Source: Ophiothrix spiculata
Lineage: Eukaryota > Echinodermata > Ophiuroidea > Amphilepidida > Ophiotrichidae
Assembly (NCBI GenBank): GCA_000969725.1
Contig: JXSR01S064557.1
DNA length: 64,000 nucleotides
Direction: 5' to 3' (one strand)
Below, piece after piece: positions 1,233 to 53,830 of this stretch. The number at the start of each line of letters is the position of its first letter. The stretch's first letter is position 1. The notes under the pieces were generated by a model that was not told where the DNA came from, searched no databases, and saw only the letters and a list, made by a program, of their open reading frames with translations. The translations under genes and the position numbers were made by a program.

Positions 1233-1619
1233 CCCAATCATGATTTATATAATGTACCTGAACATAACTAAGGGTAGTGATCCAGTTGCACCATTTTGAC
1301 AGTAACATAGTGGCGAAGCTCGAAGGTTTGGCTTATTTAAGATGGTGCTACAGTTCACATGTTTATTTTTTTGAAGTTAGGTTTACTTCTTGAACTGTAT
1401 CTTAAGACCTTATAATACAAATGCCATCAACATTTCCGGAAAGGTTTCAAACCAATCTCAAAATGATGCCTTTGCAAACTAAAGTTGATTAGGAACATTT
1501 TCCAGTTAAAAATGATAATTAACTTGAGTTCTAACCACCTGTATTATGAGTTGAAAGTAATTTTACTAACCAATATTTGATCACAAATTTTCAAAATAAT
1601 ATATTATGACAGGATTTGT

Positions 1620-2870
1620 GGAATGAATTTCCCCACGGGGGCAGTTTTACCGATTCGTTTAGTTGCAGTGGTGTAAAAACGCAATATTGATTTTGAAACT
1701 CGTAATAAAATGTGTTCATCTCTATATAGCGCTACAGGTGAAAACGCATGCCAAGGTCGTAATTTCCCCAAATCATTTTTCGTCAAATTTGCAATCCACA
1801 TGCTTACTTCAAATACATGAAAAATTTCCCTTCAAAGAGATGATCGGAAATATGAAACATACATGTAGGCTATATTCTTAGGACAATATTGGACTTACAG
1901 GTCTTTAAACGTGTTTGTCTAAGCTATATATTTTACTACCTGACAACATTTGACGGACCAAAAAATGAAAATACAATATGCTGCTTTATGATAAATGATC
2001 ACAAATATGTAAAAGCGACGGCGTGTACTAGAGATGGAAATTAAATTTGAAATAGGATCGTTGATTCTCGAGAGGACACAACCCTAATGTTTACAACTTT
2101 CAATACCCGCGCTTTTGGCGAATTGTTTCCATAATTTTAGACTGTTTTTGCCCTGATTTTTATTCTGAAGTATTGATATAAACGCCTACATGTGGTCTGA
2201 TAAGTGGACTAAGTACCCTCCCTTGCGTAATATCGACTGCCCAGTATGCCTGTAGATATAAAGCAAACATCAGCGATGTATCCAGTACAAACTCTGATGC
2301 TTACGTTGGATAGCTGTAAGCCTTCTAGCAGAGTGGTAACTACGGACATTCTATAGAGTCGCCATTAGACAAGATTTAAGTACATCTATGCAATTTTGTA
2401 TGTTGTTTTGCATACTTTAAAATTCATTCGGTAAGAATTTGGGGATGTTTTCAATTATGACATAGGTATATGAAAAGATAGAATATAAAATTTCTATTTT
2501 CATTTATGTCTGTGTTTTGACAATAAAAAACAGTTAGATCAATATAAACAGTGATAAAGTAAAATTGGTCAATCGTAACTTCTACACACTAAAAATTATA
2601 TTTTTGTCGCAAAGAATTATGTTGTAAGCTTAGCACACTTAAAAAGGGGTAGGGCTTTTTGACCTGTATCTTTACCAGCATTTTTATACATTTGCTATAA
2701 CGTGGATTAAGGGTTATTAAGAGAATAAATCCATATCAAAACATTACAAGATGCTCGTGAATCCACTTTTTTGCTACTCTATGGCGTGTCGGAATTTAGA
2801 TGGATTTTAATAACTGTTTTCACACTTATTACCATCATGAATGAAAATTAATCTTACTGATTACTAAATT
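1620..2870 (+). repeat. Unit-head block, older paralog of the unit-tail block
   Basis: This block (copied at 19770-20174 plus 22301-23165) is also similar to the tail block 17306-17640 and its copy 41862-42240. Shared landmarks are a run ending CGTAATAAAATATG-type sequence, then GTTGATTCT, GCTTTTGGC, ATTCTGAAGTATTGATATA, ACGCCTACATGTGGTCT, AAGTGGACTAAGTA and CCTCCCTTG. Similarity is lower than between units, so head and tail were duplicated before the unit itself was. No coding potential is seen. Confidence 0.8.
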
Positions 2871-2879
2871 CGAAAAACT

Positions 2880-3715
2880 TTCCCCCACCCCTGGAAATCT
2901 AATGGTGCGCCCCTAATGTAAACTTTTATTAAACATTAATAGCAACAATTTACAAAGGCCATATTTTATCCGATCTATTGTAGTACTCCCTGATATTTCT
3001 TTTACACTTTTCTTTGGAAACTTTTTGCTATTTTTTATGTATAATAATTTAACGATATTCACGCAACAAAACCAAAATAGTATTATAAATGATAAATTAT
3101 ATATGTAATGAAATGGAGTATGGGTCTGGAAGCTCAAACTGATGAGAATAAGACGTTTACCTATATCAAATACATACCCTTTTTAAAATGGATTTTTCTC
3201 AAAAACTAAGTCGGTGACCCCCTTTTTTTTAAATTTCAGATATGTGATCAGCACACATAAAAACACCATATCCTATCAAAAAATAAGAAAATTAAATAGA
3301 GGAATTCTATCTGTGCTAGGCCACCTTAAAAGTGTACTTTTCCCTTTTTTCTTTGTGAGTTAACGCCACATTTTACGTAAATAAAACTTTCAAAATCTGA
3401 GATGTTAGCTTTAATCATCTTTTTAGTTCCAAATAATCAAAGAAAAATCCTGACTACATGTATAATTTTGCATTTTTATGTGTCTTCAAATTGATTATAG
3501 CAGGAATTGAATGGTTTCGCTCAAGTGACTATTGATTTAATCAATAGTCTATAATTGCACTTTCTTATGTTCTGTCTAATCCCGGAATATAATCTTCTCA
3601 GTTATGATATCAAACAATGAGATGATATTCACACATTTATATGTGTATTTAGATCTAATCGGGGATCTAATACATCTTCTAAGGTATAATACTCAAATGT
3701 CTCTCTTAATTTTCA
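2880..3715. other. AT-rich stretch with nothing recognised
   Basis: Unit 1 homology to unit 2 fades near 2870. The rest is AT-rich sequence with homopolymer runs, no TIR pair, no tRNA-like promoter and no convincing exon. Confidence 0.5.
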
Positions 3716-3727
3716 TCTTCCTCCGTT

Positions 3728-3821
3728 AGCGTGATCGGTTAAGGCGCCGGCTTAATATATCAGCATGTACAATTTTCCCTGTAGTCAGTGGTGTCAGTGG
3801 TTCGAGTCCCGGCAGGACAAG
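3728..3821 (+). repeat. tRNA-like SINE head (fragment)
   Basis: It contains an A-box-like GTGATCGGTTAAGGCGCCGG and a B box GGTTCGAGTCCCGGC in tRNA order. The segment between them is too long and unpaired for a clean tRNA. An A-rich tail follows (about 3835-3895). It is best read as a tRNA-derived SINE or tRNA pseudogene. The neighbouring motif TTAATATATCAG also occurs at 26022. Confidence 0.5.
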
Positions 3822-4228
3822 TGCAATTTTAGAAAATCAAATTAAATTGAAAAATGAAAAACAAAATTTGATAAAATAAAAAAAAATGAAAACGTCAGAT
3901 TAGACTTAACCTAAGATCTTATCTGCCTGATTGTTTAATATACCGCCCTCTATAAAATCGCGGACGCAGAAAAAAAAATTGGAGCCACGATTTTTGCCGA
4001 GTGTCACCTCCTATATTCATCCTCCTTGATATTACAATTCATTGTTCGATTATGAATAAACTACAACCTTGAACATTCATTCACATTTTGTGAGATTACG
4101 AATCATGAGGTTTTGTATTACAAGGTTAACTTTAAATGTTTGCAAATTCCAACAAAGGCCTAAAGAATCTACACTTATTGTTCTTTATTTCGACGTTATT
4201 TTTTGTATTTTAAACAATGGTTTAAGTC

Positions 4229-4309
4229 AGGGAATCCACTCGAAGTTAATGATTCGTGATCTCCAAATCCACTCGGGATCCACGAATCAATACTCCTTGT
4301 GGATTCCCC
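4229..4309. repeat. Short imperfect palindrome
   Basis: GGGAATCCACTC on the left pairs with GTGGATTCCCC on the right, and ATGATTCGTGAT pairs approximately with ATCCACGAATCA inside. It could be a tiny MITE or a decayed foldback. No TSD was resolved. Confidence 0.4.
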
Positions 4310-5497
4310 GTGACATAACCTAGGACTGTGCTCCTCATATTTGTCCCATTGAAATTACATCAAATATAGGACCTGCAAATTGTCTGAATTGGAGTGTCAG
4401 GGGCTTGACTCAACAGTGACGTTTAATGTTCAATATTAGTATTCACACTGGCACATATAAGCACACATTTAAATTGCTTCCTGTTACCTCATTGCATGCC
4501 AATTCACTCGCCTTACTAATGGCAGTAGAAGTTTTGTCTTTAAAGTTCATTTCATTTAAGATTTCGCGTTATTGTAATTATTAAGTTTGCAACTTTTATT
4601 GAAAAAATGAAGATCCTGAAGGAATTATTTTATGCAATTTGGATTAGTTTGCACCCTGTGCATTATGGTATTAATTTCATTAAGTAGAAATACCTTACTC
4701 TCTCTATTATATCCATTTTCAAAGTAGACAATTTGTGGCAAATCAAAGTAACGTTTGCTTGCGTTATAATAGGAGTACTCTTTATCATAATTTATAAAAG
4801 CTTAGTCTGACATTGTGTTATAAACTGAACGTCACCTTTCTGGAACTTTTTGGGTACAAGTAGTACAAAATGGCTTGTATTATGATTAAAATTTGATAGG
4901 TTACTTCTAAAAGATAAAGTTAAAAGTAGGTCAGGGGTTTTATTATTAGTCAGAGGAGATTTCTAAAGATACATGTAGGCTTACATTGGGAAATCTTAAA
5001 AACGTCTAGAAAGATCTGGTTTCTATTAATTGACTCCACTGAGGACACAGTACCGCTAATATCGCGCACACTTATTAACATCCTATGGCATCATCTTTAA
5101 AATTCACTGCTTGAAAGAAAATCCCATTTCATTTTAATGTTTTACTAAAATGGAATATGTTTCAAATTATAATTTTTAATTTGCTAAGTAAATAAAACAT
5201 ATATTTGCTATTAATAGGACATTTTAATGCGCAAAGCTCATAGGATTAGCTGTTATATTCTGCACAGAATCCTAAATTAGTATGATATGCTAATATTTTG
5301 CCGAAAGCGATGTTTAAAAGTGCACAAAAATAGGTAAATGGAACAGGAAAATGCAGTTTGATATCTCCACTGATTTGATTGATTCATTAATAAAAATGCG
5401 GTTAATTGTCTGATGTTTCAAATTACATGTATAAAGCTAATTGATTTATGCTTATAATGGTTGTAAAAGCTGTACGTAAGACTAAAGAAATACTATA

Positions 5498-5681
5498 GGC
5501 TCGGTCCAGACTCCACTATCGTATAGAATATTTTGCTTAGAATATTCTATGCTGACGACAAAATGACGTTGGTCATAGAATAAAACACACAGTTTAATTC
5601 GATGACCTACGTCATTTTATCGTCAGCATAGAATATTCTAAGCAAAATATTCTATACGATAATGGAGTCTTGGACCGGGCC
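5498..5681. mobile_element. Palindromic MITE, TA target (unit 1 copy)
   Basis: Two arms of about 80 bp (5498-5579 and 5601-5681) are near-perfect inverse copies starting GGCTCGGTCCAGACTCCA, separated by about 20 bases. TA flanks both ends (5496-5497 and 5682-5683). The small size, TA target and absence of coding sequence fit a Tc1/mariner-type MITE. The same insertion is present in unit 2 but absent at the matching position of unit 3 (near 45555). Confidence 0.85.
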
Positions 5682-6449
5682 TAAAGGCAATATATATTAC
5701 TAGATGCTAGAAGTTTAGCAACGCATTGAAAAGAACTATATAAAAAAAACCTGACCGGACAACATGTTTAGTTTAGGGAATATCGTATACTAGAATGATG
5801 CCAATACGTGTCAGTTAGATCTTGATTTAATTCAAGTACACTGAGTAGCAAATAAAGATTTAAGGTGTACCATATGTACAAGCACTATATCTTATAAAAT
5901 AAGTTTTTGAGAAAAGGATATTCATTACATTTGTAATTAAATGTAAATTGCATAGTTATGTTTTAGTATATTAGATTACACGTATATAGATGTACGTAAT
6001 TAGTGCTTTTATAACGATATGCAGTAAGATTTCAAACAATCGACTCAGAATATTCTGTACGAAATAGATTAGGGTAAATAGATTAGGGTATCATTGTAAT
6101 CCTTTTATTATAAATTTAATGGATGAAATCATCTGAACCATTATTGAAGAAACATTTCATTGCGGGTAATTTAACTGATACTACAACCAATTATTTTGAA
6201 CTTGATTGATTACATGTGACCTGGTTTCCCAGTAGACAGTCCTTTGCTGTTACAGAATTCTTGACTCGAATTACCTAGGATTAAATGATACAAGTAAGGT
6301 TTATATGCATGAATATGACACAGACAATGTTACTATAACAGATTCCGTTGAACCTAAATGTGGGACGAGGGGATACGTGTAGCAGACACAAACTTTCATT
6401 AAAGAATTCTCTATTAATACTAGTCTTTAGAATAGCTCTTCAAATACTA

Positions 6450-6592
6450 ACAAAAATGATTCTGGATTGTCGTCTCTGATTGAAGTGTTTAACAAAAGCC
6501 TTCAAGATGGGATTTTCAAAAAACCTGAGTCTGCCAGTAAACTACGTCCAATTGCTCTTAAAATTGTTTGGTAGAGTGTTGTGACTGAATGG
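6450..6592 (+). pseudogene. LINE reverse-transcriptase fragment (unit 1)
   Basis: The + strand translates to residues like SLIEVFNKSLQDGIF followed closely by KLRPIAL. This resembles the stretch of non-LTR reverse transcriptases with the form FNxSLxxGxFPxxWKxA...NYRPIALT. About 15 residues normally between these motifs appear to be missing. The frame ends soon after at KIVW and a stop. Only this scrap survives, so the clade (CR1, L2 or Jockey-like) cannot be assigned. It lies about 240 bp left of the inverted 26 bp array. Confidence 0.5.
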
Positions 6593-6829
6593 TTAAGAGA
6601 TGAATTTTTTACCACTTCTTGATACCAAACAATACGGTAATACACTTAAAATATGCATTTGTAGGATTGTTCAAACTATAATAAAAAGTTATGTTAGACA
6701 AATCCAGTGATTACTCACATCTCTTTAGCTTTCGACCTCTCGATCAGAGATCTTGATCACAGGTGTCGTCCCGCGACGATCCAAATCCGATGACCTTGTA
6801 GACTCTTTCACAGACTCTTTCTATCAGTC

Positions 6830-7345
6830 TGGAAAAAGGTTCACTAGTCTAATTTGAAAAAAAAAGGTTCACTAGTCCTTAAATGAACTAAGGTTCGCCA
6901 GTCCATAATTAAAAAGGGTCCGCTATAGTTGTAAGGTTCGGCAGTCTGGAAATGAATTAGGGCTCACCAGTCAGGAAATGAAGAAACCTTTGCCAGTTCG
7001 AAAATAAAATAAGTTTCACCAGTCCGAAAATGAAAAAAGGTACGCTGGTCTGAAAAAAAAATCAGCATGATATAATTATTTTTCAGACAAGCGAACCCTT
7101 TTTCATTTTCGGATTGGCGAACCTTGTTTCTTTTTCGCACTGGCGAACCTTATTTCATTTTCGGACTGGCGAACCAACTTATATTTTCGGACTAGCGAAC
7201 CTGTTTTCACTTCCGGACTGGCGAACCTTAGGATTAACGAACCCTTTTTATTTCGGACTAGCAGACCTTATTTCAATTTTTCATCTTCGGACTAGTGAAC
7301 TATTTCATTTTCGGACTAGCGAACTGTCAGACTAGCGAACCTTGG
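6830..7345. repeat. Inverted array of ~26 bp tandem repeats (unit 1)
   Basis: From about 6840 to 7055 there are about nine degenerate direct units of consensus AAGGTTCGCCAGTCCGAAAA plus TGAAA. From about 7083 to 7343 about eleven units of the reverse complement follow (TTTCATTTTCGGACTGGCGA plus ACC). The two tandem arrays face each other across about 25 bases, giving a foldback made of minisatellite arms. An open frame of 73 codons across the right arm is only a translation of the repeat. Spacing varies between 17 and 33 bases, and the left arm is more degenerate. Confidence 0.85.
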
Positions 7346-7386
7346 AATAAGCGGGCTTCAATCTAATAAGGGACGTTTAGAGACGG

Positions 7387-7851
7387 ATACCCTAGTCACA
7401 TAACTTTGTGGCGAGGTTACGATATGTTTATGGCGTCATACCGGGTAGAAATCAGCGGACACCGATCGGACACCAGACGATGACCGTCAGGTGTACGGAC
7501 GGTTTCTTGGCGGATCCATGAGCAGCAGAGACGCCGGAAGCATGCCGCAAGAATTTCATTCTTATGATATGGTCACTTACGCCGAAGGAAGCCGCACTGT
7601 CGCATCGCCGCAACGCGCAACGCCGGTGTTACATCGGCATGACACTAGTCGGCGAGCGTTGGTAAAGTGACCATAACTTAAGATATCATATAAAAGCCGG
7701 AAGATTTCAACTGAGAATTAAATTATTTCGGCATGCTTCCGGCGTCTCTACGTCTCACGGACACCGCCCAGTCTCTACACGGACACCGTCCGGACAACGG
7801 TTGGTCACCGACCGGTGTCCGGTCGGTGTCTGCTGAATTCTACCCGATAAA
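7387..7851. mobile_element. CpG-rich long-TIR element, right end lost (unit 1)
   Basis: The left arm starts ATACCCTAGTCACATAAC and runs through GGCGTCATACCGGGTAGAA and repeated CGGACACC motifs. The right arm is its inverse, ending GAATTCTACCCGAT. Arms are over 200 bp. The outermost ~40 bp of the right arm, seen in unit 2, are absent. Instead 7852-7876 repeats the array sequence found at 7073-7097, so a rearrangement joined array and element. One arm carries TATAAAAGCCG at about 7691. It has no coding capacity. Confidence 0.75.
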
Positions 7852-10800
7852 ATTATTTTTCAGACAAGCGAACTTATTTCTCCTTGTTTTCTACAATTTT
7901 AAATTCTTATAGGCAAAATATATTTTTCATATTTTATCAATCTGAGTTTTCATATTTTTACAAGCAGAATCTAAAACAAAATTGATTTAAGGGTTGAAAT
8001 TCGTTAATTTTTATAGAAAATACCATATAATGCATCATTTTTTACCAATAGCAAAAAAACACTTACATAAAAGGGACAACTTCAAATTTTCATACCCACG
8101 TTTTCAATTTGCATTTGCTTTCTCCTTTTTCAGATAATAAGGGTTCAAAGTCAGATTTATCGGCAAGTCACGGTAATTAAAAAAAATAAAAAAATAAAAA
8201 TATTACATTGCTCATTATAAGCTTATTTGCGGAGGACCTCAGTACTCACTGCACGCGTGAATCTAAACATGATGGTTTAAAACACCATTATGCCTTGATC
8301 TGGAAACATAAATAATTACACATAATTATTATGAAAATATTAAATATATCGATATGACATGAAATTTATTTTTTCTAAAATAAGTGTTAATTGGAATATT
8401 AGCCAAACGTATCAAACTGATATCACTAATTAAACTATTATGGACTCGATTGGTTTAATATTATTGATAAATCTATATCCGACATTATAGCGGTCTATTT
8501 GCCATCAAATTAATTCAAACGTGCCGTTGGAGTATTTTGTCCTGATTAAGTAAAGTTATGAGTATAAAAACAGACAATAACTTCGAAAAATTACCCTGCT
8601 GTCGAGGGTAAAGAATGATAATAAACACACGTTCATTTGTTGTTGTAACCTGTTATTATTTGTTTCAAATCACATATAATCCAAACCTATCTAACATCGG
8701 TATATAGAGGCTTGATGCACACTAGTACACGAGAGCAAAACTGATTCTACCGTGTTCTAATAAGTACACACACGTATCAAAAGTATTGCAACATTGGTGA
8801 ATTACAATTTTGACGCCGAATTCAAATAGCGTTTGCAAAGTGTTGCTATAAACAATAATCATGCAATTTATAATGATATCTTTATGAAGTTATTTTCATG
8901 TTTCTATCCTGTTATTCTTGCGATTGATTTGCACCTTATTTCAATAACTAGGGAGGTAGCCAAACAATTTGCTGATGACAGCTGCTCGCCTTCAAACTGC
9001 CATACACTTCGAAGGCCTGAGACCTGATATCTGCCTAGGAGCGCTTCGTAAATTAAAACAATCCCTATCTCTTGAGTGGTCTGTTATTCAGTAATCGTCT
9101 ATAATGTTATCTAACAGGTTTTCTACTGGATTTGCACAATGCGCATGTGCATTTGAAATGATGCTGTTTACTCCTTGGTGGAGGAACTTATTACCAAACG
9201 CCTGTGCGCAACAGAGTGTGACACTAAAATTAGGAACGATGAACAGTTATTAAAGCAGCCGGGCATGTTCTTGAAATATTTTTACAGTGTTTTGCAAAGA
9301 ATGTTGATATATCGGATGCTATCGATGATTCTGTCAATTATCGTAAGTTTTTCGACATAATACATATTAATACAGCTTTGACTGTAGCATTTACGCGTTT
9401 GTCATTAGAGAGATATCACAAGGGTCGTAGGTTTGTTTTTTAACTCTTAAAAAAACATTCTTCAATTATCAAAAGTCAAGCTGAACCCATGCTCCTCATT
9501 GAAAACATTATGATGCCAACCCAAAGTCCCTGTCAAGTTCGTCATTCTGATCCCCATCCCAATTCTTCGCTCACTGTTTGCAAGTGCAATCAATTGTTTT
9601 ATTTCTTTATTCTACACATTGAGTCAATAATCGTCAAATACTTCCCAGAAAATAATCATTATACGTGGTTTACTCTACTATTATGGCTTTATTGAAGGAC
9701 CAAAGGTGCTCATGCAAGAGTGTGTTTATACAAAACGAATATAATGGTATTCCCTACGTGTCTTGATTTTTTCAGAGATGGCTTCTTATACGCGATTCAT
9801 TGGCAACACTAGAGTCCATTGGACATAGGTAGCGTTGGTAGCAACAACCGAATTCGTTCAGACTTGCATAACAAACGAGGAATCCTTTGTCCCACAAGGC
9901 TACATAATGTCTATGGCCGTTATTCATTAGCTCTCGTAATGTCGCCATTTTGAAAGGAATAAAAAATGCTTTTGGAGCAAAATAAGCTAAGGACTCTATT
10001 TAAATGCATGACACAATAAACACGGATAACATTGTTTGGTTAAAGGAAATACATTAAACTTAAGCATCAGGAGCTGTAGTTTCAAACACAAGGATTTACC
10101 ATATGTTGCAATACTTTTGACAAGTACGTGTAAATTATGTTTATCAGATTAAATGAGCATAATCGTACTTGTATCCTTTCATCCTATATATTAATTGCAA
10201 CAAATCAGCATAAATGTGCTACTTACTTCAGAGAACCTTTGTTATTACTTTACAAACCTCGAAGTATGCAACAAACGATCAAACTCCTGTTACGAAATCC
10301 ATAGCATATCCCTTGTATTCTACAACATAATGAACAGGTGGTCTTTGTATTGTGTAAGAGACTAGTAATAATTTATAGGATTGATTAAGACCAAATCACT
10401 TCGTATTGTATTAATATTTTTGTACATGAATCGTTCATGATTTTGGTATTATTTTTGGCGAATTTTGTTGTCACCACGTAGACGAACATTTGAATATTAA
10501 GTAAGATTTGCCATGGTTGTGATTCGAAAAATATGGACTAATTTACTTCCCCGTATGGTCATATTGGTTTACATGCGTTAATCGGTTGCTTGTTGCATAC
10601 TTTATACTATTGCATAGTTTTTAGAGTATAGGTAATCAATGTCACAAATTTGTAACAAGTAACAACAAAGAAACACCTTTCGGGAAGTCAGGCCATATTT
10701 AATTGTATCAAAGTATAAGAAAAAGAGTTTCATGTGATTTATGTGAATTTATGTACATTTTACGATGGATACTCCAAAAGTTCGCAGCCTGAAGTAGTAA

Positions 10801-11411
10801 AATAAAAACAATAGTTGTTTTATTAACATGTTATGTAGTTCAACTTGATTGATTGATTTGTGAAAAGTTTTCTTATTTTCATGTTACAGAAAATCATTAT
10901 TCGCTGGTGAAGGTTTTTAAATTTCTGAACTCAAAAACGATATAACGATAATGAGATCTCCTACTTGCTATGTTACAACGTAACATCCATTTTGTTACTG
11001 AATGAAGAAGACTGCTTTCTATTAATGTTAATACCTTGTTTGCGTTGAGTTTTGGGAGGGACATTCTAATGTGGCTGCGTATGTCAGTGAACGATGGTCT
11101 CGATTAGATTATAATGTGTGAACGGACCTTAAGATTCACATGTTTTTATAGCATTAATGATGTCATGTTTAAAATGTCCTTTACGCAATGTTAGTATAAA
11201 TAAGGAGATAACTAAATAGTGTATGTAAATTGTTTATTCTAAAACTACTTGATGCTACTTGTGACTTCCTTTACTCCTACTTGGTGCACTTGAACTTCAA
11301 GTCTGTATCTTAGAATAGATTTCAACTTAATTTTATTAATGCATCATCTAGTATTACATTTGTTTAATATACTTACACTCTATTTCTTGTATTATTCATG
11401 ATTGGTCAGTA

Positions 11412-11744
11412 GAGGCCCGTAGCCAGGATTTTTTCAAGGGGGGTGCGGATTTTCAAAAAGTGGACCTTTTGGAGGAAAATTTTCATTTTGGTCGACCCAA
11501 AACTAATTTTAGTGGTTTTGAAAAAGGGTGACAAGCAAAAAAAAAAAAAAAAAAAAAGGTTTTCAGTAGTTTTTCAAGCATTTTGTTTAGTATTTTGGTA
11601 AAAACGGCCTTCCATTTACATGTTTTGGTGCTTTAGGTCCTCTTTTGGTGGGTATTTAGGGATTTTTTGTGGACCTTTTTTGTACATTGTCAAATTTGGG
11701 GGGGGTGCGACGCCCCCACCGCACCCCCCCTGGCTACGGGCTTG
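11412..11744. mobile_element. hAT-like MITE with 8 bp TSD
   Basis: The ends read GAGGCCCGTAGCCAGG and CCTGGCTACGGGCTTG, inverse of one another. The 8 bp GGTCAGTA stands on both sides (11404-11411 and 11745-11752) and occurs once in unit 2 (38879-38886), which lacks the element. The 8 bp TSD and CGTAGCCAGG ends fit hAT. It is 333 bp, with a poly-A run inside and a G/C-rich stretch near the right end. No transposase is present. Confidence 0.85.
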
Positions 11745-12054
11745 GGTCAGTAATACAAGAAGGCAAGAAGAACATTTATATCCAATGACGTATAATTTGT
11801 TGTCGGTTGATTCAGTAAATTGTATAAGCAGGATTATTGAGTGAATCAAATTACGTCACATTAAATTTGATATCTTAGATACCGTATTAGACCGGTAACC
11901 ACCACCCTTGTCAAAAAATCAAAACAAACTAAAATAAAACAAACCAAACAAACAAACTGAGGACAAATTATAACCAGCACTTTTATTGAATAAATTTGAA
12001 CAATCTTACGTAAATATACAGGATGTCCAAAAATTAACTACACATTTTTAAATT

Positions 12055-12515
12055 TTGCCGAAACGCCGGTGTGAAATCGGTATAACACAGGGGAATGATT
12101 GCGATGCCCGGTCGGTCACCGGTCGGTTATCGGTGGTTATGTGACTATAAGCAAGACATCGTATAAAAGCCGCAAGGTTTTAACTCAGAATTAAATTCTT
12201 GCGGCATGCTTCCGGTGTCTCTACGGCCGGTGTCTGCTGCATAATTCTACCCGATATGACGCCGTACCACGTCGGGATACCTGGTAGTCATACCTGGTAG
12301 AATTTAGCGGACACCCATCGGACACAGGCCAGCGACTGACCGGTGTCCGGATGGTGTTCTTTAGCCGCAGAGAAGCCGGAAGTATGTCGCACGAATTTAA
12401 TTTGAGTTAAAATCTTGCGGCTTGTACACGATGTCTTCAGTTATGGTCTAATAACGACTGGCATCCGACCGGTGGCCGGCCGGGCATCGCAAGAGTTCGC
12501 AAGCATTCATCGGTG
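12055..12515. repeat. CpG-rich palindrome, two family arms joined end to end (unit 1)
   Basis: The first ~210 bp match the right arm of the 29893-30392 family and the second ~210 bp match its left arm. The palindrome centre at about 12275 is therefore the outer end of two elements, not the middle of one. Landmarks are TATAAAAGCCGCAAGG (12172), TTCTACCCGATATGACGCC (12243) and TGGTAGAATTTAGCGGACAC (12295). Unit 2 keeps a longer version of the junction. Confidence 0.7.
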
Positions 12516-30392: not shown

Positions 30393-30394
30393 TA

Positions 30395-31200: not shown

Positions 31201-31210
31201 TTAGCACTAA

Positions 31211-41858: not shown

Positions 41859-43699
41859 TATATGATCCAAAATTTTCAAATAGAGGTATACAATTTTACC
41901 GCTTAGTTATGTTGCAGTGTATAAACGTGATTTTGATTTTGAAATTCGTAATAAAATATGTATGCAACAGCAACGTTGTGTTCAAAAAATGTAAAAGGAT
42001 ACGGGATTGTTGATTCTCGAGAGGACGACACCTTAATGTTTACAACCCGTGCTTTTGGCTAATTGTTTCAATAGCTTTCCTGTTTTTGCCCTGATTTGTA
42101 TTCTGAAGTATTGATATATACGCCTACATGTGGTCTGATAAGTGGACTAAGTATCCTCCCTTGTGTGATATGGATTGCCCAGTATGCCTGAAGATATAAA
42201 GCAAACATCAACAAAGTAACTAGTGTTAACACTGCTGCTTACTGTATACCTGTACAATTTTAAATGCTTATTTCATTTAGAATTTCGAAAATGTAACAAT
42301 TTTCTTTCAATTAAAACACAGGCTTTTAATTTTATTCAAAAAGATATATTTTAAAATAGCATTTAAATTTTTCATTTATGTCACGTGTTTTATTTAAAGA
42401 GAAAGGAGTTTTCATTCGGAGTGAAACTAGTCAATCTTAATTGCATCGCACTAAATATATATTGCCCGACTGATTAGTCAGTCTCGTCGAACATAAAATT
42501 ATGTTGCGAACTAACATCCACTGAAATATAGCGCCTAAAAAACGGGGTGAGTCAATGATGTTGGCAAATAAGACAAAGGCAGATCTGTGTTTGAATTGAC
42601 CTAAAAAGATAAAGATAAATAGAGCCATTTAGGATTTGTAAGAAAAAGTAATAATTCAATTTCGGTACAAATCCAAATCAACACATCAGGACTCGATAAT
42701 TTACGGGACCGTTGCTGCTGTGTGACGTGTTATTAGAATTTATAGGGATTTAAATTACTACACTTACACGTACTACCATGAGTGAAATGTTAATCTTACT
42801 GAGTACGACAATGTTCTGAAATGAAGTTATTTGCCCTTCCATTCTTATGTCATTGATTGTTCTTGTAATCTACTGAGATTATAAAATCGTGCTCAAGCAA
42901 TAGACTCACGCATTATGTCGTGACTTGTCGTTTAATAGCACTGCAAATATTGGTCTTGAATTTTCTTTCCTTGACGCCAATTTGAAAATAGCACATAAGG
43001 CTTCTCTGGAGATTTGTCTAGCCACCGTAACCTTTTCTACCTGATGGATATAACAATTATCTTAATTAAGTTACGAGCAAGTCAACTTTGTTATATACAT
43101 CTTACGTAAAGTTTATTCATGTTATTAATGTACAGTGTGTAAGAAAAAGTCAATCTCTTGAAGGAAATGAAAGGTAAAAGAAAATTTCAAATCTTAAGGT
43201 TTGAAAAGAGATTTTCCTTAAGAAAAACAGGAAGTGCCCTTTTATTATTATAGGTTGAAGATATAATTGCCGACAGTCAACTATTGTGTTTCCTGTATTC
43301 ACGCTTATATTGAAGAGTATTCACAACCAATGCAAACTGACACTGGGCTTTAATTGATATAAATGAAAGACGGAAAACCTTTCACGGGCAGCTAAAAGCA
43401 TTGGACAAGGACTGTTCTCAAAAAATGCGATCCCTGTTGGTGTTTCGATAATCAAATTAGGGATATTGACATTTGACCTTTCACATTTTATTAGCAGGGA
43501 TTTCACTTAGCTTATATACATTTGATGTAAGCCACTGTTAGATTGACTTTATCGCTTTAAAAGATAACAGTCACGTAATTATTAAAAATCAAAATTGAAA
43601 TATAATGTTTTATATAGGTAGACTTCCTTGTCTAAAAAAGTGAAAAGCTAACAAATATATCATAAAAGGTGTCCAAAAAGTCCCTTCAAACTTGAAAAC

Positions 43700-43870
43700 A
43701 GATTAAAATGAATGCTAAAAATCACAATGCAAAATCAAATACACATTTAAAAACTAGAAGAGTAAGCATTTTTACCCATGCATGTAGTGCAAATTGTTTT
43801 CCAATATAACATGAAAACTAAAAATCACAATGCCAAATCAAATATAAATTTAAAAACTGGAAGCCTAGGC
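43700..43870 (+). repeat. Short tandem duplication at the unit 2/3 junction
   Basis: GCTAAAAATCACAATGC...AAATC...ACATTTAAAAACT (43713-43755) recurs at 43811-43858. The spaced copy suggests slippage or local duplication near the tandem breakpoint. Upstream GGTGTCCAAAAAGTCCC (43671, also 19471) resembles a worn mariner-type end. Confidence 0.5.
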
Positions 43871-44462
43871 AATTTTAATACAATTAAGATAATTTTTATT
43901 ACTATCTGAACATTTATGTCAAATATTATTTATCTAAACTATCAGTTGAATATGTTCCGTCATTAGGCACAGAGTCCTTGTAGTACTAAAAAAATCCTAC
44001 TTTGTAAATTTGATGTCTAAGTAACAACATAATTTTGCAAATTTCCCCTACCTTTCTACACTATTCAAGCGGCTAATGGCGTCAATTGGAGTTTTAGGCG
44101 TTAACTTCAGTCGTGTTGAACATAAGTCAGATCGATTCTACGGCTACAAAAGAGTATTATAAAAGAGTGTCTGGTGAAGACTATGCAACCCACTCTGAAC
44201 TGTGTGTATAGTGTGGAACGATTGCCAGACTATTACATAATCACTTCTACAGCGAACAATAGGGAATCTAAAGAGGTAAGTCACCAAGACTTTAGTCTGC
44301 ACCTATTTGCAAATTTACGTCCGCTATACAGGTCAATAACGAGCGTATGTATGGTATTGACATAATAACTTTTATATTTGAAAGTAAGATACAGGGTTGT
44401 ATATATTCTGTATGTTGCATTTGTAGTAGGTCCCAAATGACCCATACTTCAAAACCTTTTAA

Positions 44463-44952
44463 GGGGTGTAAGCACCTCACTCAATGTTACATTTTTGCAA
44501 ATTTATTTTGTATCATAACTTTTTGAGAAAATCACGAAAAACACACTTTTTGGCCATTTGGGCTTCCAACCAAGCTAGAAATAACATTTTTTTAAAAAAA
44601 TGACCTAGGAATGAAAATTTTAAACTTTTAAATTTTTAAATTTTAAATTTAATTTTCATGCCAAATAAGGTCAAAAAAGACGCAATATGCGAGTGGGTGT
44701 TTAAAATTAAAATTCCCATTCCTAGGTCATTTTTTTTAAAACATGTTATTTTTAGCTTGGTTGGAAAATGTGTTTTTCGTGATTTTCTCAAAAAATGTGA
44801 TATTTGGTCAAAAATCAACATCACCATCGTGTTCCTTGTGAAAATTCCTTTCGGGAAATGTATACTTTTATTAACTTTAAGCACTTTGTTAAAAAGTTAT
44901 GGTACAAAATAAATTTGCAAAAATGTAACATTGAGTGAGGTGCTTACACCCC
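44463..44952. mobile_element. TTAA-flanked element with ~75 bp TIRs
   Basis: GGGGTGTAAGCACCTCACTC plus AATGTTACATTTTTGC at the left is exactly inverse at the right, and matching runs about 75 bp, continuing inward with mismatches (CCTAGGAATG arms). TTAA flanks both ends (44459-44462 and 44953-44956). It is 490 bp and non-coding. A TTAA target implies piggyBac or Kolobok type. A related element starts at 63626. Confidence 0.85.
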
Positions 44953-44956
44953 TTAA

Positions 44957-45335
44957 GATATCATATACCGCCAAGAACCATTCCACGTTAACCACAACCC
45001 TATTTTTTGCAAATTGAGGGGCGTTGAAGAAACATTTTGTGCTTTTCTTCCAAGCATTCTCTTGGCGCAGTCAAGCGTGATCAAGACATTCAAGCACATG
45101 CTTATCCCTCTATTACAGATAAAATCAAATTTGACCCCAAATTAACCCATAATTGTTGTTGCCCCCCTTACCAGTACATGAGAAAATTAATAACATTCGA
45201 AGTTCCATTTCACACCCAACAAGATAACCTATTAAATTTGACCAAAAGCAGCATAAGTTTCCAGATATTTTCATCATAAGATTTACATAAAAAAGTGGTT
45301 GAAATAGTTTTATTCCAACTTTAGGAGCAACCGTG
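44957..45335. other. Stretch with an 80-codon open frame, not recognised
   Basis: An open frame of 80 codons (45037-45279, +) holds a CCCP and a short hydrophilic sequence with no known motif. There is no homologous frame in units 1 or 2 and no splice or promoter context. It is probably chance. Confidence 0.3.
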
Positions 45336-46336
45336 TATTATTAAATGCACGAAACGCATAGAATTTAATAGCATGCACAACATATAATTCTAAATTAGTA
45401 TGATTTGCTAATATGTTGCCAAAAAGCGATTCTTACAAGTGCTTGATATATGTAATTGGAACAGAAAAATGTCTTTATCATCCCATCTGATTTCACTAAT
45501 CAATTTACATACATAAACATATTGATGTAAGATGTAGTCTTTCAGCTGTAAGTAAGTCTAAGGAGAATAAACAGTCATATTCATGTCAGGCTTTTACTAC
45601 ACATAGTGTCGCTTACTAGTCATGAGTATATACCAATAATTATAGAATATAGCAATTTATTGAAAGCCTCTGAAACCTTTTCAAAAAACAAGTCAACAGA
45701 ATAAAAGAAATAGACACCACAATCTGCGGTAACTAGGTGGGTAGTTAGAGCTTGATTAACCAAATATAAGCGAAACACTTTCAAAATCTGGTGATTTAGA
45801 GTGAGCCATACCTCCCTGATTTGAATTTCTATGTCTCAATCCAAAAATCTAAGTAGTTCGCGTATACGATAGGGTCAGGGGTAAAATGATTTCGAGGCAT
45901 CTTTTGAGGGTCCGGGTCCCCGAGTACATGATTTTGGGCCATAGAGCAAGCTAAGTTATCTCTAAACGGAAGAAAAATAGGTCGGCTGGCATTTTCAAAT
46001 CTGCCCTTTTCAATTGATTTTTTTCATTTCTTATCATACATGTAGATATAAGAAAGACTTAGTATGCTCATAATAAAATTGCAAACTGTGTTACGGTTGA
46101 ATGAGCAAATCACGGACAATATTCACTCACGGGGAACTTGAAATCGGACCGGACAATATCATTGCTGGTACTTTGACTGAGTGCAACCGATATTTAAACA
46201 TCATAAATCGCACGTGTTCTGATTTCCCAGCAGACGTTTATATTTGTTATTATATACCGCATTAATAAATTTAACAGAGTTGATTGGATGAAACCCGATC
46301 ACATTATTTCAAATAGCTTTAACCAGATTAATGAAA

Positions 46337-46430
46337 ACCCTATATAGTACTTTTGAAAGTACTATATGGCGCTAAATAGTACTTTTGAAAGTACTATTTA
46401 GCATTTTTGGAAATACTATATAGCGCTTAC
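46337..46430. repeat. Repeated small hairpins
   Basis: AGTACTTTTGAAAGTACT occurs twice (46345-46362 and 46378-46395), each extended by flanking complementary bases (TATAT/ATATG and TAAAT/ATTTA). A third arm, AATACTATATAGCGC, follows. It may be the core of a palindromic MITE; the right side is close to an assembly gap. Confidence 0.6.
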
Positions 46431-46499
46431 TGCATTTACCTTATACGCGAAGCAGCTTTCACGCACGAATTTACGCACTCATTAAACTTATACGCGCAA

Positions 46500-46689
46500 N
46501 NNNNNNNNNNNNNNNNNNNNNNNNNNNNNNNNNNNNNNNNNNNNNNNNNNNNNNNNNNNNNNNNNNNNNNNNNNNNNNNNNNNNNNNNNNNNNNNNNNNN
46601 NNNNNNNNNNNNNNNNNNNNNNNNNNNNNNNNNNNNNNNNNNNNNNNNNNNNNNNNNNNNNNNNNNNNNNNNNNNNNNNNNNNNNNNNN
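46500..46689. other. Assembly gap (N)
   Basis: This is 190 undetermined bases. Sequence after the gap (46705 on) aligns with 6255 of unit 1. Confidence 0.95.
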
Positions 46690-46919
46690 TACTACTTATG
46701 ACAGAATTATTGACTCGGATTACCTAGGATGAAAAGATACAAGTAAGATTTGCATGTATACATGACACGGACAGTGACACTATAACAAAATAATTGGAAC
46801 ATAAATGTGGGACACGGAGACGCTTGTGGCAGGCACGAAGGAAAATTTAATGAATTCTCTTTAGAGTGGTTGTTCCTTACTGATTGTGCAAGACACAGGA
46901 GACGCATGTTCGAGAAAAA

Positions 46920-47855
46920 AACGAGAAGAACAAGGTTTTTCCTATAATTAAAATTTTACCTATGTTTTATTTAGAGCCTGTTGTATCTGTGTGTGTTAGG
47001 AGGTAATTTGCACACAGCTCATGTGAGAGTAAATATGTAAACTTAACTCATTAGCGGTGGAATATCCATTTCTATTCCTTTCTTCTTTTTTATATGTTTC
47101 CAAGCGCGTTGTATTTATGCACAGAAACATCATGCTGCAATAGTAGTGTGGTCTTAAGCCATGATACTGATTGTTTCGAGTAGGTTGTGAATTAAATTGC
47201 GGGATTTATTTAGTTTGAATGCTCTATGAACTCATTAACGATGTCATCGAGATATTGTTACAAGAAAGCTATCTTCCTGGGGACTAACTTTATGTTAATC
47301 TGCTCGAAGGATACCATAAAAACCTATTACCGAGGAACTTTTTTTAAAGTAACCTTAAAGTTGCCAATACGAATCCTGACAACTTGTCTTTATTTAATAT
47401 GTTGCTTTAGATATTATTTTAAACACCCGTATTTCTTTCTTAATGTGATTTACTTTTTTATCAGCTGACATTAAAGCAATCCGTTTGAAGCGTATTTGTA
47501 GTAAAAACATTCAAAACGTTTACTTCATCATTATATTGGAAAATTAACTTATGGGCAAATACCTTTTTATTTCAATACCCTACGGATATTTTTTCTTGAT
47601 TACAAGACGTTCATATAAATATGTGATATACGATCATGAAATACCACAAACATGTTAAGTTATCTACAATCATTAAAAAAAACCCATAATGTTCAATCCT
47701 ACAGCATCTCAATCCTATCCTATCCACTTTGTAACTTAAACCTCCATTCAACGCTGTTCAACTAAATGCAACTTAGTGTAATCCATATATTATATATGGT
47801 ATATACAGGTTCCTGTCATCTGTTTATTCAAAACTGGTGCGTGCCTAAAAGTTCA
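46920..47855. other. Unit 3 stretch without recognisable content
   Basis: There is no alignment to units 1 and 2 here, where those carry the inverted array and the CpG-rich element. It is AT-rich, with no TIR pair or exon found. Open frames such as 47226-47468 (+) are hydrophobic and match nothing. Confidence 0.45.
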
Positions 47856-49310
47856 TGGCTTGAAGTATTAAAATATAAACCAAATTTTTAATTATCATGT
47901 TATGTAGTTCAACTTGATTGATTGATTTATTTTCATGTTACAGAAAATCATTAATCGCTGGTGAAGGTTTTCTTTAGTTCAGAACTCAAAAACAATGTAA
48001 CAATAATGAGATCTTCTCCTTCCTATGGTACAATACAGCTATTTTGGTACTGAATGAAAAAGTAACTTTTCTATTTACGATACCTTGTCTTAAATGAGTT
48101 CTTGGAGGAAAATTCTGAGGTAGCTGTGTATGTCAATGAACGACGGTCTTGATCAGATAATAATATGTGTGAACGCACCTTAAGATGCACATGTTTTATA
48201 GCATTTATGATGTAAACTTTTCTTTAAGCAATGATATTATAAATAGTGTATATAACTAAATATTGTCTGTATGTTGTTAATTCTAAAACTACTTGATGCT
48301 ACTTGTGACTTCCTTTACTCCTACTCGGTGCACTTGAACTTCAAGTCTGTATCTGAAAACAGATTTCAAACTTAATCTCATTAATGCATCATCTAGTATT
48401 ACATTTGTTTAATATACTTACACTCCCTTTCTTGTATAAATAATGATTTGGTCAGTAATACAAGAAGACCAGAAGAACGTTTTAATCGAATGACGTATAA
48501 TTTGTTGTTAAGGGTAAAATCGACACATCCAGTTTGTTATCTTAGCAATTAGACTGGTAACCATCACCTAGGTCGAAAGATAAAAAAACAAAACAAAAGT
48601 AGACTTAGACCGGTCTCTGAAGAGACAGGAACCCTAACGATTGTCATATTTTGTGTCATATGACTTCTATATGCATAAATCATTATTTGTCAAAGGTACT
48701 CAAAGGAAAGTTCGTGTGACCTTTGATCGCTGGTCCAAGGCGAAACATTTGATACCTTAATCTTTGAAATTGAACAAAGTGAATAATTTAACCTTTCCAT
48801 TGACCTTTCTATTCATTCATTCATTCATCTCTGAATACAATAATACACACCACTCAAACACTTCCATTGGAACAACCGATACCGGTAGGATCTAGGTTTA
48901 ACATAGGAACACATTCAAAAAGTCAAAATCTGAAAGTTTAGGTTACCGCTGCAAATCCCATTTTGTGTTCTCATATTTAGTACAAGTAGCAGGATATGCC
49001 GTATGTCCACTCTGCAAGTGACCCTGATACCTCAAAGTAGTTTAACCAGAAAAATAGAAAGAAGTTTGTTTCTGGTATCGAAAGTAATACATACTTTTAC
49101 TCCTTATAGGAAAAGTTACCTCTAATTTTTTATATATATTTTGTATGAAATGTAATCAACTTGAAATCACTAGACCTTTGTGTTGCTAGACGAATTCCTT
49201 GGAAAATAATATATAGTTATTGTAACTTAATCTCTATTTTGTTTTACCGAATTGGCTTAATTAAATATGTATGTATCTTCTATCGTGTTTTAATAAAATT
49301 TGTTTCGTAA

Positions 49311-50309
49311 AAAGTATACTTAAGGTAAATACTGGTACACAAAGTTTGGACAATACTAGATATTCAAATTTTGTCCAGTATTGTCCAATTCTAGTTTAAT
49401 TTCTGTATTCCAGTATTGTTGGTCAAAAATACTAGGTATATACCAGTATTGTTCAATTCATGTCAATATTCCAGTATTGTTGGTCGACAATACTGGTTTG
49501 TATCAGAAGGTTACGCTCCTGAATCGTAACATCATTTTTTTTCCAGTTTTATGGCAACTTTCCTTTATGAAGTTCAAAAGCTGTGTAAAGTCTGACTATG
49601 GGGCAATGTTATGATGAACCAGCAGGGTCAGCCTCATAAAAGGCCTTCGTTTTCAACCAGCAATTTCCCCAATGACTTCTTTTACAACAGCAACCCTATT
49701 TTTTATCGATTTTTTTTCTGTTCTACTTCCTGTATGATCCCTCCTTTATAGAGGTACACTTTACCTGGAAGGTCCCTACATACCTCCAAACTGGAGAAGG
49801 CACAAACCGCCACAATGAGGCGCTCTCAGGAGTTTAACATATTTTTTTCTGTAAATTGATCTAATATAAGTTGGTAAGATTAGCAATATACTTAGTCCTT
49901 CAACTACTGCTTGGTTAGTAGACCTAAATATTAGGCCTTATGTTGGCTTTCAACTAGACTTTTTGGGATTTCAGAATGCAGATGTATTGGGATTGTGGAC
50001 TGATAATGTGTAAAAGCCATACATACAGAATTGGAGAATAAAGGCTTTCCAAGAATCAATAAAATAATTAGTCTTTGATAATGGAGCAACATTGGTGATT
50101 GTTACTTGAATAAGACAAATTTTACCATTTAACAATACTGAAATAACAGAAGCATTGACCAATACTGGAATGAAATGTGTGTACCAGTCATTGTATAATA
50201 TTTGCAACAATACTGGAACAAAAACACCCCACAACTGTTTAAAACTGGAATGTCCTAGAATTGACCAATACTGGTATATACCAGTATATTGGACCTGAAG
50301 TATACTTTT
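49311..50309. mobile_element. 1 kb element with many CCAGTATTG motifs near both ends
   Basis: The left end AAGTATACTTAAGGTAAATA plus CTGGTA is inverse to the right end TACCAGTATATTGGACCTGA plus AGTATACTT. CCAGTATTG/CAATACTGG-type motifs occur about a dozen times, in both orientations, clustered at 49330-49500 and 50130-50285. Because AAGTATACTT is its own complement, it could be part of the TIR or a TSD. The middle (49510-50100) has no recognisable gene. Confidence 0.7.
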
Positions 50310-50688
50310 TTCTCTGTTTCTATATATGTCACCATAGTTAGAGTGCGCCTTTCCTACAAGGTAATGTAGACGTAATGTTACAGAAAGTCTAGGTCAATAG
50401 AATAGACATTTCATTCGCGGTATGTCATTTTCCACCAAACAACGGCTAGTTAACGTTTTTGTGTAGTTGGTGCTACACTACCGCTTTTAAGTCTAAAACT
50501 ACCTGAAGACGTTCGTAGCTCTTTAAAAATATGTATGGATATAAAATATGATACAATTCATCCTTTACAAAGCTAAATTGCAATTATCATTAGCATATAA
50601 ATTAAAGTATTTCGGAAATAAATGCAATTGATTTGATTATGTTTTCAGAATAAGGCTGCGGATTTCTGTGTAATTTACTAAATGTTTA

Positions 50689-50936
50689 GGGGAGACACTT
50701 AAACTAATCGGCAATGTGGTTCAGATATCTGCACCAGTAGGAACAGTCTATTTCTCCACTAATCTTACATATATCGATAATTCCTCTTATCCAGGCATTT
50801 GATTGTGTGCCTGTGTACTATATCTATGATTTTAAAGCATCAAATTGAATATGTTCCGGCCAAAAGCCAAAAATTTGACTTTCCCGTCTAGTTAAGATAA
50901 CGGCAGGCTGTTGCCGATTAGTTTACGTGTCTCCCC
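50689..50936. mobile_element. 248 bp MITE with GGGGAGACAC ends, TTAA-like target
   Basis: GGGGAGACACTTAAACTAAT plus CGGCAA is inverse to TTGCCGATTAGTTTACGTGT plus CTCCCC. TTAA follows the right end (50937-50940), and TTTA precedes the left (50685-50688), probably a mutated TTAA. It is non-coding. Confidence 0.75.
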
Positions 50937-51924
50937 TTAAACCGATTTCACTTGGACAGGTTAAACTTTTAAATGGAAGCTTTTATGAACTACTAAAATT
51001 GATCAAAATCGTAGCGTATAATACAGTATCACCGGAGTAGTAAGCTTAAAAACAGACATACTTAAATTGTTTTCATTACATTTATGGAATTAAAGTCATT
51101 CATGCAAAGTATATGTATTTCTCTACTTAAAAATCCTACAATTCCACTTGGGTTTTTCTGTGTGTGTATGTGTTTGTTCAAATCTGAACGGCGATAAAAA
51201 AAAAATCCACCATCGTATTGTCATCGTATTGCAAAATTGTCATTTGCGCAATGATTGTGCGCATTGCCAAAGAGGAACCCCATTCTAAACTTTGTTTACG
51301 TATTCTAATGATTATAATGATTCATAATAGCCTACACATACGGTTTTCGTTCATCAAATCTTTAAACGTTTAACCGTTCATCGTCTGTTTAAACGTTAAA
51401 ACGGATAGTATCGACATCTTTATTTCAGAAGCAATTTTTTGTAATAGTTAACAACGTCGTGCCATTTGCCTGATTATCCATTAAATTAAATTTACTCGAC
51501 AATTCACGCTTGCCACGGTGGCGGATAAAGAGTGCTATTTTTTGTCAAATAAAGTAAGTTAAGTCGGTATTGATACAAAAAATACAGAAACTAGAATAAA
51601 GCATGTGATGGCTTAAATTGATAACGGCAACCGCCGGGCAGAATTCAAAAGGATTGTATAATACATCATCGATAATTGTCTAAAATATATCGTGACAGCC
51701 AGATTAAATCATTTTTGGAGCCATTTACTTGGATTTGTGAAAGACGTGATTGTAATTTTAAATGTCAAAATTAACAACAGCGATGAACACCTTTTGTGCA
51801 AAAACACCTCAATTTACATATTTTTTTTCCAAAAGCTTGCTGTATTATAGGCAAGAAAACACAAGATATTAACTACTATCATTCTAAGGGATGATAAGCT
51901 ATGCAAGTACGTAGCAACATACGT

Positions 51925-52090
51925 AGCGGTAGTTCCGTCACTTTGTTTCAATGAGGTCCTAGGTTCGATTCCAGCACCTGACGTTTTATGTGAACTTGTT
52001 TTCAGTCCATGCTCGCTCCCGCAGGTTTTTCTCCGGGTACTCCTCCTGCATTCAAAAACTGAATTAAAAAAATAACATCTTGGAGCCCAG
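51925..52090 (+). repeat. tRNA-derived SINE (TCTCCGGGTACTCC family)
   Basis: The head ends in GGTTCGATTCCAGCACC. The body block GCAGGTTTTTCTCCGGGTAC plus TCCTCCTGCAT matches the SINE at 17824-18176, with part of the repeated CTCC deleted. A poly-A-rich end is at 52060-52075. The A-box part is weak, so the 5' end is uncertain. Confidence 0.7.
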
Positions 52091-52289
52091 TTGAAGATAA
52101 GCTTCCTTTAGCTTACTTGGTACGAAGTACCAACTTGGGTTTCCTTGGCGAAAGCCTAAACAAGATGATCCCAAAATTTGCAAACAAATATATCATGACA
52201 GCCAGATTGAAGCAGTCGGGGAACGGCATACCCCCTGGAGGTATATAATTTTATCACTCCGTTAAGTTGCAGCGTAAAAACGGGGGGAC

Positions 52290-52455
52290 GGGGACGGGGG
52301 AAGGATTGGCGCAGCGTTTCTGCCCTGGGTTTCGGCCCGGGTTCGATTCCCGATCGGACCTAAGTTGTACGTGAATTTGATTGTCTGTCCATACTCGTCC
52401 TCGCAGGTTTTCTCCGAGCACTTCGGTTACCTCCTACATCTCAAATAAAAAATTC
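52290..52455 (+). repeat. tRNA-derived SINE (same family)
   Basis: GATTGGCGCAGCGTTTCTGC (A box) and GGGTTCGATTCCCGATCGG (B box) are followed by the body CGCAGGTTTTCTCCGAGCAC plus TTCGGTTACCTCCTAC and the tail AAATAAAAAATTC. It lies 200 bp from the previous family member, in the same orientation. Confidence 0.75.
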
Positions 52456-52705
52456 TTTCCATTATTCTGTCTTTCACACCACGGAGGCGTCCCTTGAATT
52501 TAATGCAAATTTAACGTGTTTTAACACGTTTTATGACGTGTTGAGCTTCATTTAAGGAATTTTATCTCATTTGTGGGCGTTTTTAACGTTTAGTTGGTAT
52601 ATTATTTCCGATTTTTGCGGATTATTCCGGATCATTACGGATTTTTGCGGAATCTTGTGGATATTGCGGGTTGGGAGATGAGAATAAAAATAAAAATATC
52701 GATGC

Positions 52706-52750
52706 TGTTCTCGACGTGATTCGAACACGCAACCTTCTGATCTGGAGCCA
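52706..52750 (-). pseudogene. tRNA-Trp 3'-half fragment
   Basis: On the minus strand CTCCAGATCAGAAGGTTGCG plus TGTTCGAATCACGTCGAG equals the anticodon loop (CCA), variable region and T-arm of animal tRNA-Trp. The 5' half and acceptor stem are missing; upstream sequence is unrelated. It is a truncated tRNA pseudogene or SINE remnant. Confidence 0.65.
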
Positions 52751-53214
52751 CGAAACCTTTACAACTGTTTTAAGATATAAGAAAAGGAAATACCCAAACG
52801 TGGACTCGAAGCATGAATAAGCAAAAAGGACAACAAATTACTTTTCTTTCTACGCATTTTTCTATTTTTTAGCCCTTTTCAATTCTACTCATTTTTTACC
52901 TCTTTCTAATGCCAAATTTAAGCTAAAACGCTGCAACACAAGATAAATTAATTTTAAAACGCCCTCAAACGTAATAAAATTAGGCTTAAAATACTCTACA
53001 TTACGCCCAAAATACTCTATTTTCCACAATAATATTCATCATTACGTAAATTAGGCCACGTCCACTTCATTAATATTCATTATTATGCAAATTAGATAGA
53101 ATTGCACCCTCTCGATTTCAAAACCTCCGAAATCCGCCCACTTTCTACAAAAGCGTCATCCTAAGACACTTTTGCTCCCGGAATAGCTTTTCTCTGTTTT
53201 GCTAGTCACTTTTC

Positions 53215-53315
53215 ATATTACTTATTTATATGTATTTTTGTTGTTTGTAAGCGCTGTATTTAAATAGAGCGCTATGTGCTTCAATTATAAGAATAATAAT
53301 AAAATAAAAAATGTA
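53215..53315 (+). repeat. Retroposon-like 3' tail
   Basis: GTAAGCGCTGTATTTAAATA plus GAGCGCTATGTG is followed by AATAATAATAAAATAAAAAA. Such a GCGCT stem followed by an AAT microsatellite tail is common at 3' ends of LINE/SINE copies in invertebrates. The 5' extent is not resolved. Confidence 0.4.
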
Positions 53316-53830
53316 ACGATTTTTTTCAATTATACCACAGGCCTTTTATCTCATTCAAAAATATTTTAAAAGTAAATTTTCAATTTTCATTTATGTCACG
53401 TGTTTTAACAAATATAGAAAGGAGAAATAGAAATCTCATTTCAATTACATGTATTTCCATGTCCAAACCAACACATCAAGAGATACTAGTGATTTTCCTA
53501 CCCAAGTTTGCGGCACATCCCCGTAATCACTTTTGTACTAAGTACCCCCCCCCCGGCATGAAAACTTCCAAGATACTATCACAAGGAGTATGCAATTTGT
53601 CCTTGAGTGGCCACACTGAATGGGATTTCTGTTTGCCAAGAGCTTAAGTCAACAGACTTGCACATCTCATTATCCGAAAGTGTGTTGTCAGGGGCAACCA
53701 GCTGAAAGTGTCAACGGATTAAGCTCAGCCTAATCTGACCAACAGTTATAAAAGGTCAAAATAACCAAGGCAAAACTATAGAGGTTGCTGAGCAGGAAAT
53801 AAAGATGAAATGTATGTGAGTGACAACAAA

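Follow-up and report, generated by a model that had tools for sequence, protein, structure and literature searches.

Probable recurrent tandem duplication of a non-coding segment in a 64-kb stretch of Ophiothrix spiculata DNA

The 64-kb stretch of Ophiothrix spiculata DNA examined here (contig JXSR01S064557.1 of assembly GCA_000969725.1, hereafter the window) is AT-rich, with a mean GC content of ~34%, and most of it is occupied by a tandem array of an apparently non-coding segment present in three copies, units 1, 2 and 3. We consider it quite probable that the array arose by recurrent tandem segmental duplication, in which older rounds gave rise to unit 3 and to the related blocks at the head and tail of the units, a more recent copying of the whole stretch produced units 1 and 2, and transposons subsequently entered the copies independently.

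Organization of the array and relative age of its copies

The array was delimited by self-BLAST and colinear chaining. Unit 1 (1445-19602, plus strand, 18.2 kb) forms a colinear chain with unit 2 (19592-43809, plus strand, 24.2 kb), the size of which is raised by private insertions. Every chained block lies in direct order, 12.0 kb of the 18.2 kb of unit 1 could be aligned, and the two units differ by 5.4-5.6% substitutions (Kimura two-parameter distance 5.8%); the identity of ~90% given in the BLAST table is lower than this substitution-based value because gaps are counted in it. An earlier note on this DNA, made from the sequence alone, had described a tandem array of ~18-kb units in which units 1 and 2 match over their whole length in direct order. 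The array itself and the order of its units are borne out, with unit 3 as a third, diverged copy, while the size applies to unit 1 only, unit 2 being 24 kb long, and the full-length match holds only when the private insertions and one non-homologous stretch are set aside. This stretch corresponds to 2869-4312 in unit 1 and to 23159-25657 in unit 2. Tail-like sequence is present at 23550-23785 within the unit 2 version, and it is therefore unit 1 that represents the changed copy at this position.

Unit 3 (45340-53495, plus strand), which was examined by sensitive alignment settings and profiles (nhmmer), is decayed, and only colinear islands remain of it. These are found at 45340, 46156, 46701, 47847-48597, 51454-51887, 53308-53424 and 53457-53495, with the order of units 1 and 2 preserved, from 45340 (matching 5223) to 53495 (matching ~18520). 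The alignable part amounts to ~1.8 kb of 9.7 kb, the unit ends at ~53495 and most of the head is missing. The best island scored 551 bits, as compared to 39.7 bits at most in 30 first-order Markov shuffles of the region. The description of unit 3 as a more decayed copy is confirmed, sparse though this copy is. Over the islands, unit 3 is 18.5% distant from unit 1 and 18.4% from unit 2, and these equal distances identify it as an outgroup to the other two. The spacer between units 2 and 3 contains a palindromic element of ~500 bp (44457-44958).

Head and tail blocks were recognized in the units, all on the plus strand. The head block of unit 1 (1627-2865) is a paralog of the tail block by nhmmer and is probably the tail (T0) of an older preceding unit; the tail block of unit 1 (T1, 17335-18886) is broken by a private insert at ~17791-18179. 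The head block of unit 2 (19775-23785) is likewise broken, by a Tc1/mariner insertion at 20177-22298, and the tail block of unit 2 (T2) lies at 41891-43085, while remnants of the tail block of unit 3 (T3) occupy 52156-53495. Heads and tails, direct and ~15 kb apart, are colinear over ~1.2 kb and 33-35% diverged (~34%), with only a short stretch reaching ~83% identity. Their proposed paralogy is thus upheld, as is a still older copy placed by the earlier note at 25330-25545, which was recovered as a diverged, partial copy of the head block at 25341-25524 (plus strand, E = 1e-14).

Divergence between units 1 and 2 is nearly uniform, at 4.9% for the two heads, 5.1% for T1 and T2 and 5.6% for the whole units, which indicates joint duplication of head, core and tail. 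At least three layers of divergence can therefore be distinguished, namely ~34% (head/tail), ~18% (unit 3) and 5.6% (units 1 and 2), in support of the suggestion that one gene-poor neighbourhood was duplicated repeatedly, and head-to-tail copying happened at least twice. In the simplest reading the ancestral repeat would have consisted of core and tail, and the head of unit 1 would be the tail of a preceding unit (unit 0), whose core would lie upstream of the window. The oldest duplications left the head/tail paralogs and a later one unit 3, now ~18% diverged in its alignable islands. Units 1 and 2 go back to the most recent event (5.6%), in which old tail, core and tail were copied as a direct tandem. 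DNA transposons then entered each copy separately.

Tandem (intrachromosomal) segmental duplications are adjacent, direct copies longer than 1 kb and more than 90% identical, each of which collects substitutions and transposon insertions independently. These properties are shared by units 1 and 2, which are 94.4% identical at their aligned bases (12.0 kb), and no difference in kind was found; what is particular here is that recurrent duplication of one non-coding locus can be read with the help of an outgroup copy. The array is thus a well-preserved case of an ordinary and unsurprising kind of duplication, which leaves the general view unchanged. Its value is that of a legible example of repeated non-coding tandem duplication, in which the older copy allows new insertions and deletions to be told apart and the junction distinguishes a microhomology-type from a homology-type event.

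The junction between units 1 and 2 and the mode of duplication

At the junction (19590-19606) the tail, ...CAATATAA, is followed by the head, TCTCAAATGATGCC; the tail end ...TTTTTCAATATAA joins the head directly at 19602. The exact sequence shared at the join is ~2 bp long, similarity around it is weak and the junction contains no N gap. At the outer boundaries, the left flank of unit 1 reads ...AAACCAA up to the breakpoint and TCTCAAAATGATGCC after it, and the right end of unit 2 reads ...CCAATATAA before and CATGAAAACT after the breakpoint. Proceeding through the junction, the complete tail block (17335-18886) is followed by ~700 bp of further tail and then by the complete head (from 19592).

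The earlier note had suggested recurrent unequal exchange seeded by the homology of head and tail, and these direct, colinear paralogs ~15 kb apart are indeed a usable substrate in principle. Non-allelic homologous recombination between them would place the junction within a block of homology shared by the two ends and leave a single chimeric tail/head block, whereas position 19602 falls outside both blocks and both are intact; the join is therefore not the product of a crossover between head and tail. Moreover, at ~34% divergence, with only the short stretch of ~83% identity, head and tail make a bad substrate. As an origin of units 1 and 2 unequal crossing-over is thus very unlikely, and the suggestion is contradicted for the recent event, while older events, the junctions of which are illegible, could still fit it. 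Short microhomology (~1-15 bp) together with a lack of long homology, as found at 19602, is characteristic of microhomology-mediated duplication. Judging from this junction sequence, the recent duplication would have proceeded by microhomology-mediated template switching or end joining and not by homologous unequal exchange. In yeast, segmental duplications can form via template switching at microhomology instead of unequal crossing-over (PMC2518615). The array resembles the microhomology/microsatellite-induced replication duplications of that system in being tandem and in having microhomology instead of long homology at the junction, but differs from them in that the mechanism is deduced here from a single aged junction, without genetics (PMC2518615).

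A local duplication of ~103 bp (43704-43877, plus strand; first part 43704-43806, second part 43807-43877) has its boundary within 1-3 bp of the right breakpoint of the unit duplication. Over 71 bp, its two parts are ~16% different, a value not clearly above the divergence between the units at that length, and the proximity is suggestive only of a possible origin in the same event.

The possibility was also considered that a single unit is represented twice, units 1 and 2 being its divergent haplotypes joined serially by the assembler, in which case unit 3 would be the sole true paralog. A divergence of 5.6% in substitutions accompanied by many private transposon insertions resembles divergent alleles of a hyper-heterozygous species, both units have the same two end points, like the arms of an assembly bubble, and the N gaps in the window mark the assembly as scaffolded. 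However, the two gaps lie within units (50 bases at 35904-35953 in unit 2 and 190 bases at 46500-46689 in unit 3) and none is found at 19602, where the sequence is continuous and the exact overlap of only ~2 bp is not of assembler scale. In addition, tandem duplication at this locus is attested by an independent and older copy, unit 3, and a divergence of 5.6% would be very high between alleles. We therefore regard joined haplotypes as unlikely, though less so than unequal crossing-over. False heterotype duplications in assemblies likewise present two divergent copies side by side on one scaffold, and the array departs from them in that its junction is free of gaps and a third copy, independent and older, is present (PMC9516828).

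Units 1 and 2 differ in length mostly because of private DNA-transposon insertions, seven of which have recognizable target-site duplications. Five show exact textbook signatures against an empty site in the other copy (three TA, one TTAA and one 8-bp GGTCAGTA). One of these is a degenerate Tc1/mariner-type insertion in unit 2 (20177-22298, plus strand, 2122 bp) with a TA duplication, inverted repeats of ~422 bp, ends matching in 24 of 25 bases and similarity to DDE transposases, which together are the features of Tc1/mariner elements. Its transposase fragment (21064-21336) resembles that of Sleeping Beauty over 85 residues (E = 0.0005), with only a sub-threshold match to Pfam DDE_3. Unit 2 also carries a piggyBac-like non-autonomous element (36617-37222, 606 bp, TTAA duplication, CCCTCGTCCACCTAA ends) and a mariner-type element (37499-38574, 1076 bp, TA duplication, 200-bp inverted repeats), the sites of both being empty in units 1 and 3. 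In unit 1 a hAT-like miniature inverted-repeat transposable element (11412-11744, 333 bp, 8-bp duplication GGTCAGTA, with an empty site in both units 2 and 3) and a mariner-type element (13981-15193, 1213 bp, TA duplication, ~216-bp inverted repeats) were found. Two further insertions have plausible signatures, a hAT-like one in unit 1 (15741-16634, 894 bp, 8-bp duplication ATAAAAAT) and one in unit 2 (33331-35069, 1739 bp) with a GCATG direct repeat and related inverted ends.

The outgroup position of unit 3 is of use here. It reads through the sites of four private segments (36617-37222 and 37499-38574 of unit 2; 11412-11744 and 17791-18179 of unit 1), which are therefore insertions and not deletions in the other copy. 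Conversely, unit 3 matches 13352-13436, a part of the segment 12914-13653 that is present in unit 1 and missing from unit 2; at least some of this segment has therefore been lost from unit 2.

Since the repeated DNA is direct in order and rich in transposons, the whole unit could be imagined as a transposable element of very large size, repeated insertion of which next to an earlier copy would have built the array. However, its ends carry no inverted repeats, neither a target-site duplication at 1445/43809 nor a Helitron-type 3' end was seen, and the core is devoid of transposase. This origin is thus the least credible of those considered, a giant mobile element being disfavoured by the ends of the unit.

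Coding content, block C and the weight of the evidence

In the window, searches for tRNA genes and against Rfam and Pfam yielded nothing above threshold, and the same was true of the comparison of all stop-to-stop frames with the window, of synonymous and non-synonymous counts per open reading frame (ORF) and of the 127 longest ORFs against Pfam. Nor was any gene of bacterial type seen, and the DNA transposons present are of a eukaryotic type, in keeping with a eukaryotic origin. Neither domains nor codon constraint, which would mark a protein-coding family, were detected in the shared blocks, the sole weak domain being the transposase fragment in a private insertion. Among the insertions and deletions that distinguish units 1 and 2, multiples of three are not favoured (29 of 114), and the best synonymous excess among 642 alignments (p = 0.0004) comes from a repeat outside the array. 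A minus-strand frame at 2163-2300 and its copies were considered as a coding candidate for their seeming conservation and rejected, the signal being weak (best p = 0.0017 in 642 tests) and the frame being lost in the copy at 25330. The segment is thus likely to be without protein-coding function, and its description as non-coding holds at the sensitivity of the Pfam, Rfam, tRNA and codon-signal searches.

The best-preserved island, block C, lies at 10776-11411 in unit 1, with copies at 36566-38885 (interrupted) and 47847-48457. Two patches of ~75-90 bp within it (~10827-10918 and 11236-11310) are almost identical across the three copies, with a permutation P of 0.0004 to 0.02 depending on the definition used. 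The second patch was also evaluated as a microRNA-like hairpin and rejected, the z score of -2.4 in unit 1 falling to -1.0 in unit 2 and -0.2 in unit 3. When viral and prokaryote collections were scanned for exact occurrences of the conserved patch and of the transposon ends, no match was obtained, which is what would be expected of eukaryotic DNA.

These patches bear on the proposal, also made in the earlier note, that the array marks a decayed gene or long non-coding RNA (lncRNA) family. In a form that might be entertained, the units would form a family of lncRNA or regulatory loci, decayed or still living, with their islands, block C especially, under selection. The near-unchanged patches in all three copies speak for it, as does the divergence of block C from unit 3, which is 13-16% as compared to up to 29% for other islands. 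However, the islands shared with unit 3 are no slower between units 1 and 2 (5.2%, 87/1668) than the comparison set (5.6%, 581/10306; p = 0.53), so that most of them are probably just remnants that can still be aligned. Furthermore, no coding signal and no Rfam match were obtained, the hairpin at 11236 is not conserved in unit 3, and a short gene-conversion tract would mimic the pattern of block C. Such a family is therefore improbable, and the proposal of the earlier note finds no protein, codon, Rfam or conserved-hairpin signal in its favour. Slightly less probable still is that block C and its copies represent a conserved regulatory or non-coding RNA element, the copy number of which is raised by the duplications, with the array being kept for dosage.

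Several points weigh against recurrent tandem duplication of a neutral segment as set out above. The copy number rests on the assembled sequence. The predicted upstream unit 0 was not seen, positions 1-1444 of the window having no match to the unit. Neutrality of the entire segment would not lead one to expect the two unusually conserved patches of block C, which could represent regulatory sequence or gene conversion over short tracts. Finally, the junction at 19602 is aged (5.6% divergence) and the original microhomology may have been somewhat longer. With respect to the left flank, an inverted pair at 247-300 and 1197-1246 suggests an element of ~1 kb covering most of it, which may mask the predicted unit 0.

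Other repeats in the window

A 26-bp minisatellite of the TTTTCGGACTGGCGAACCTTTTTTCA type, arranged as two inverted half-arrays, was detected at 6958-7325 and 29481-29760; its presence in both units indicates that it predates their duplication. A complex family of fold-back repeats, represented within the units by many partial copies in direct as well as inverted orientation, occupies 7429-7849, 12039-12553, 29926-30528 and 39146-40010, and its edges coincide with several of the gaps in the alignment of units 1 and 2. Beyond the array, a 443-bp inverted repeat pair (53859-54301 and 59726-60155) is 88.8% identical over its two copies, which are 5.4 kb apart, and a third related copy near 58382-58649 carries the strongest synonymous excess of the window (p = 0.0004, 642 tests). 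This repeat is probably a transposon family, with no Pfam match. Also downstream of the array, an 81-bp tandem duplication (59366-59534, 93% matches) and a 166-bp direct repeat with copies ~249 bp apart (58718-59131, 93%) were observed.

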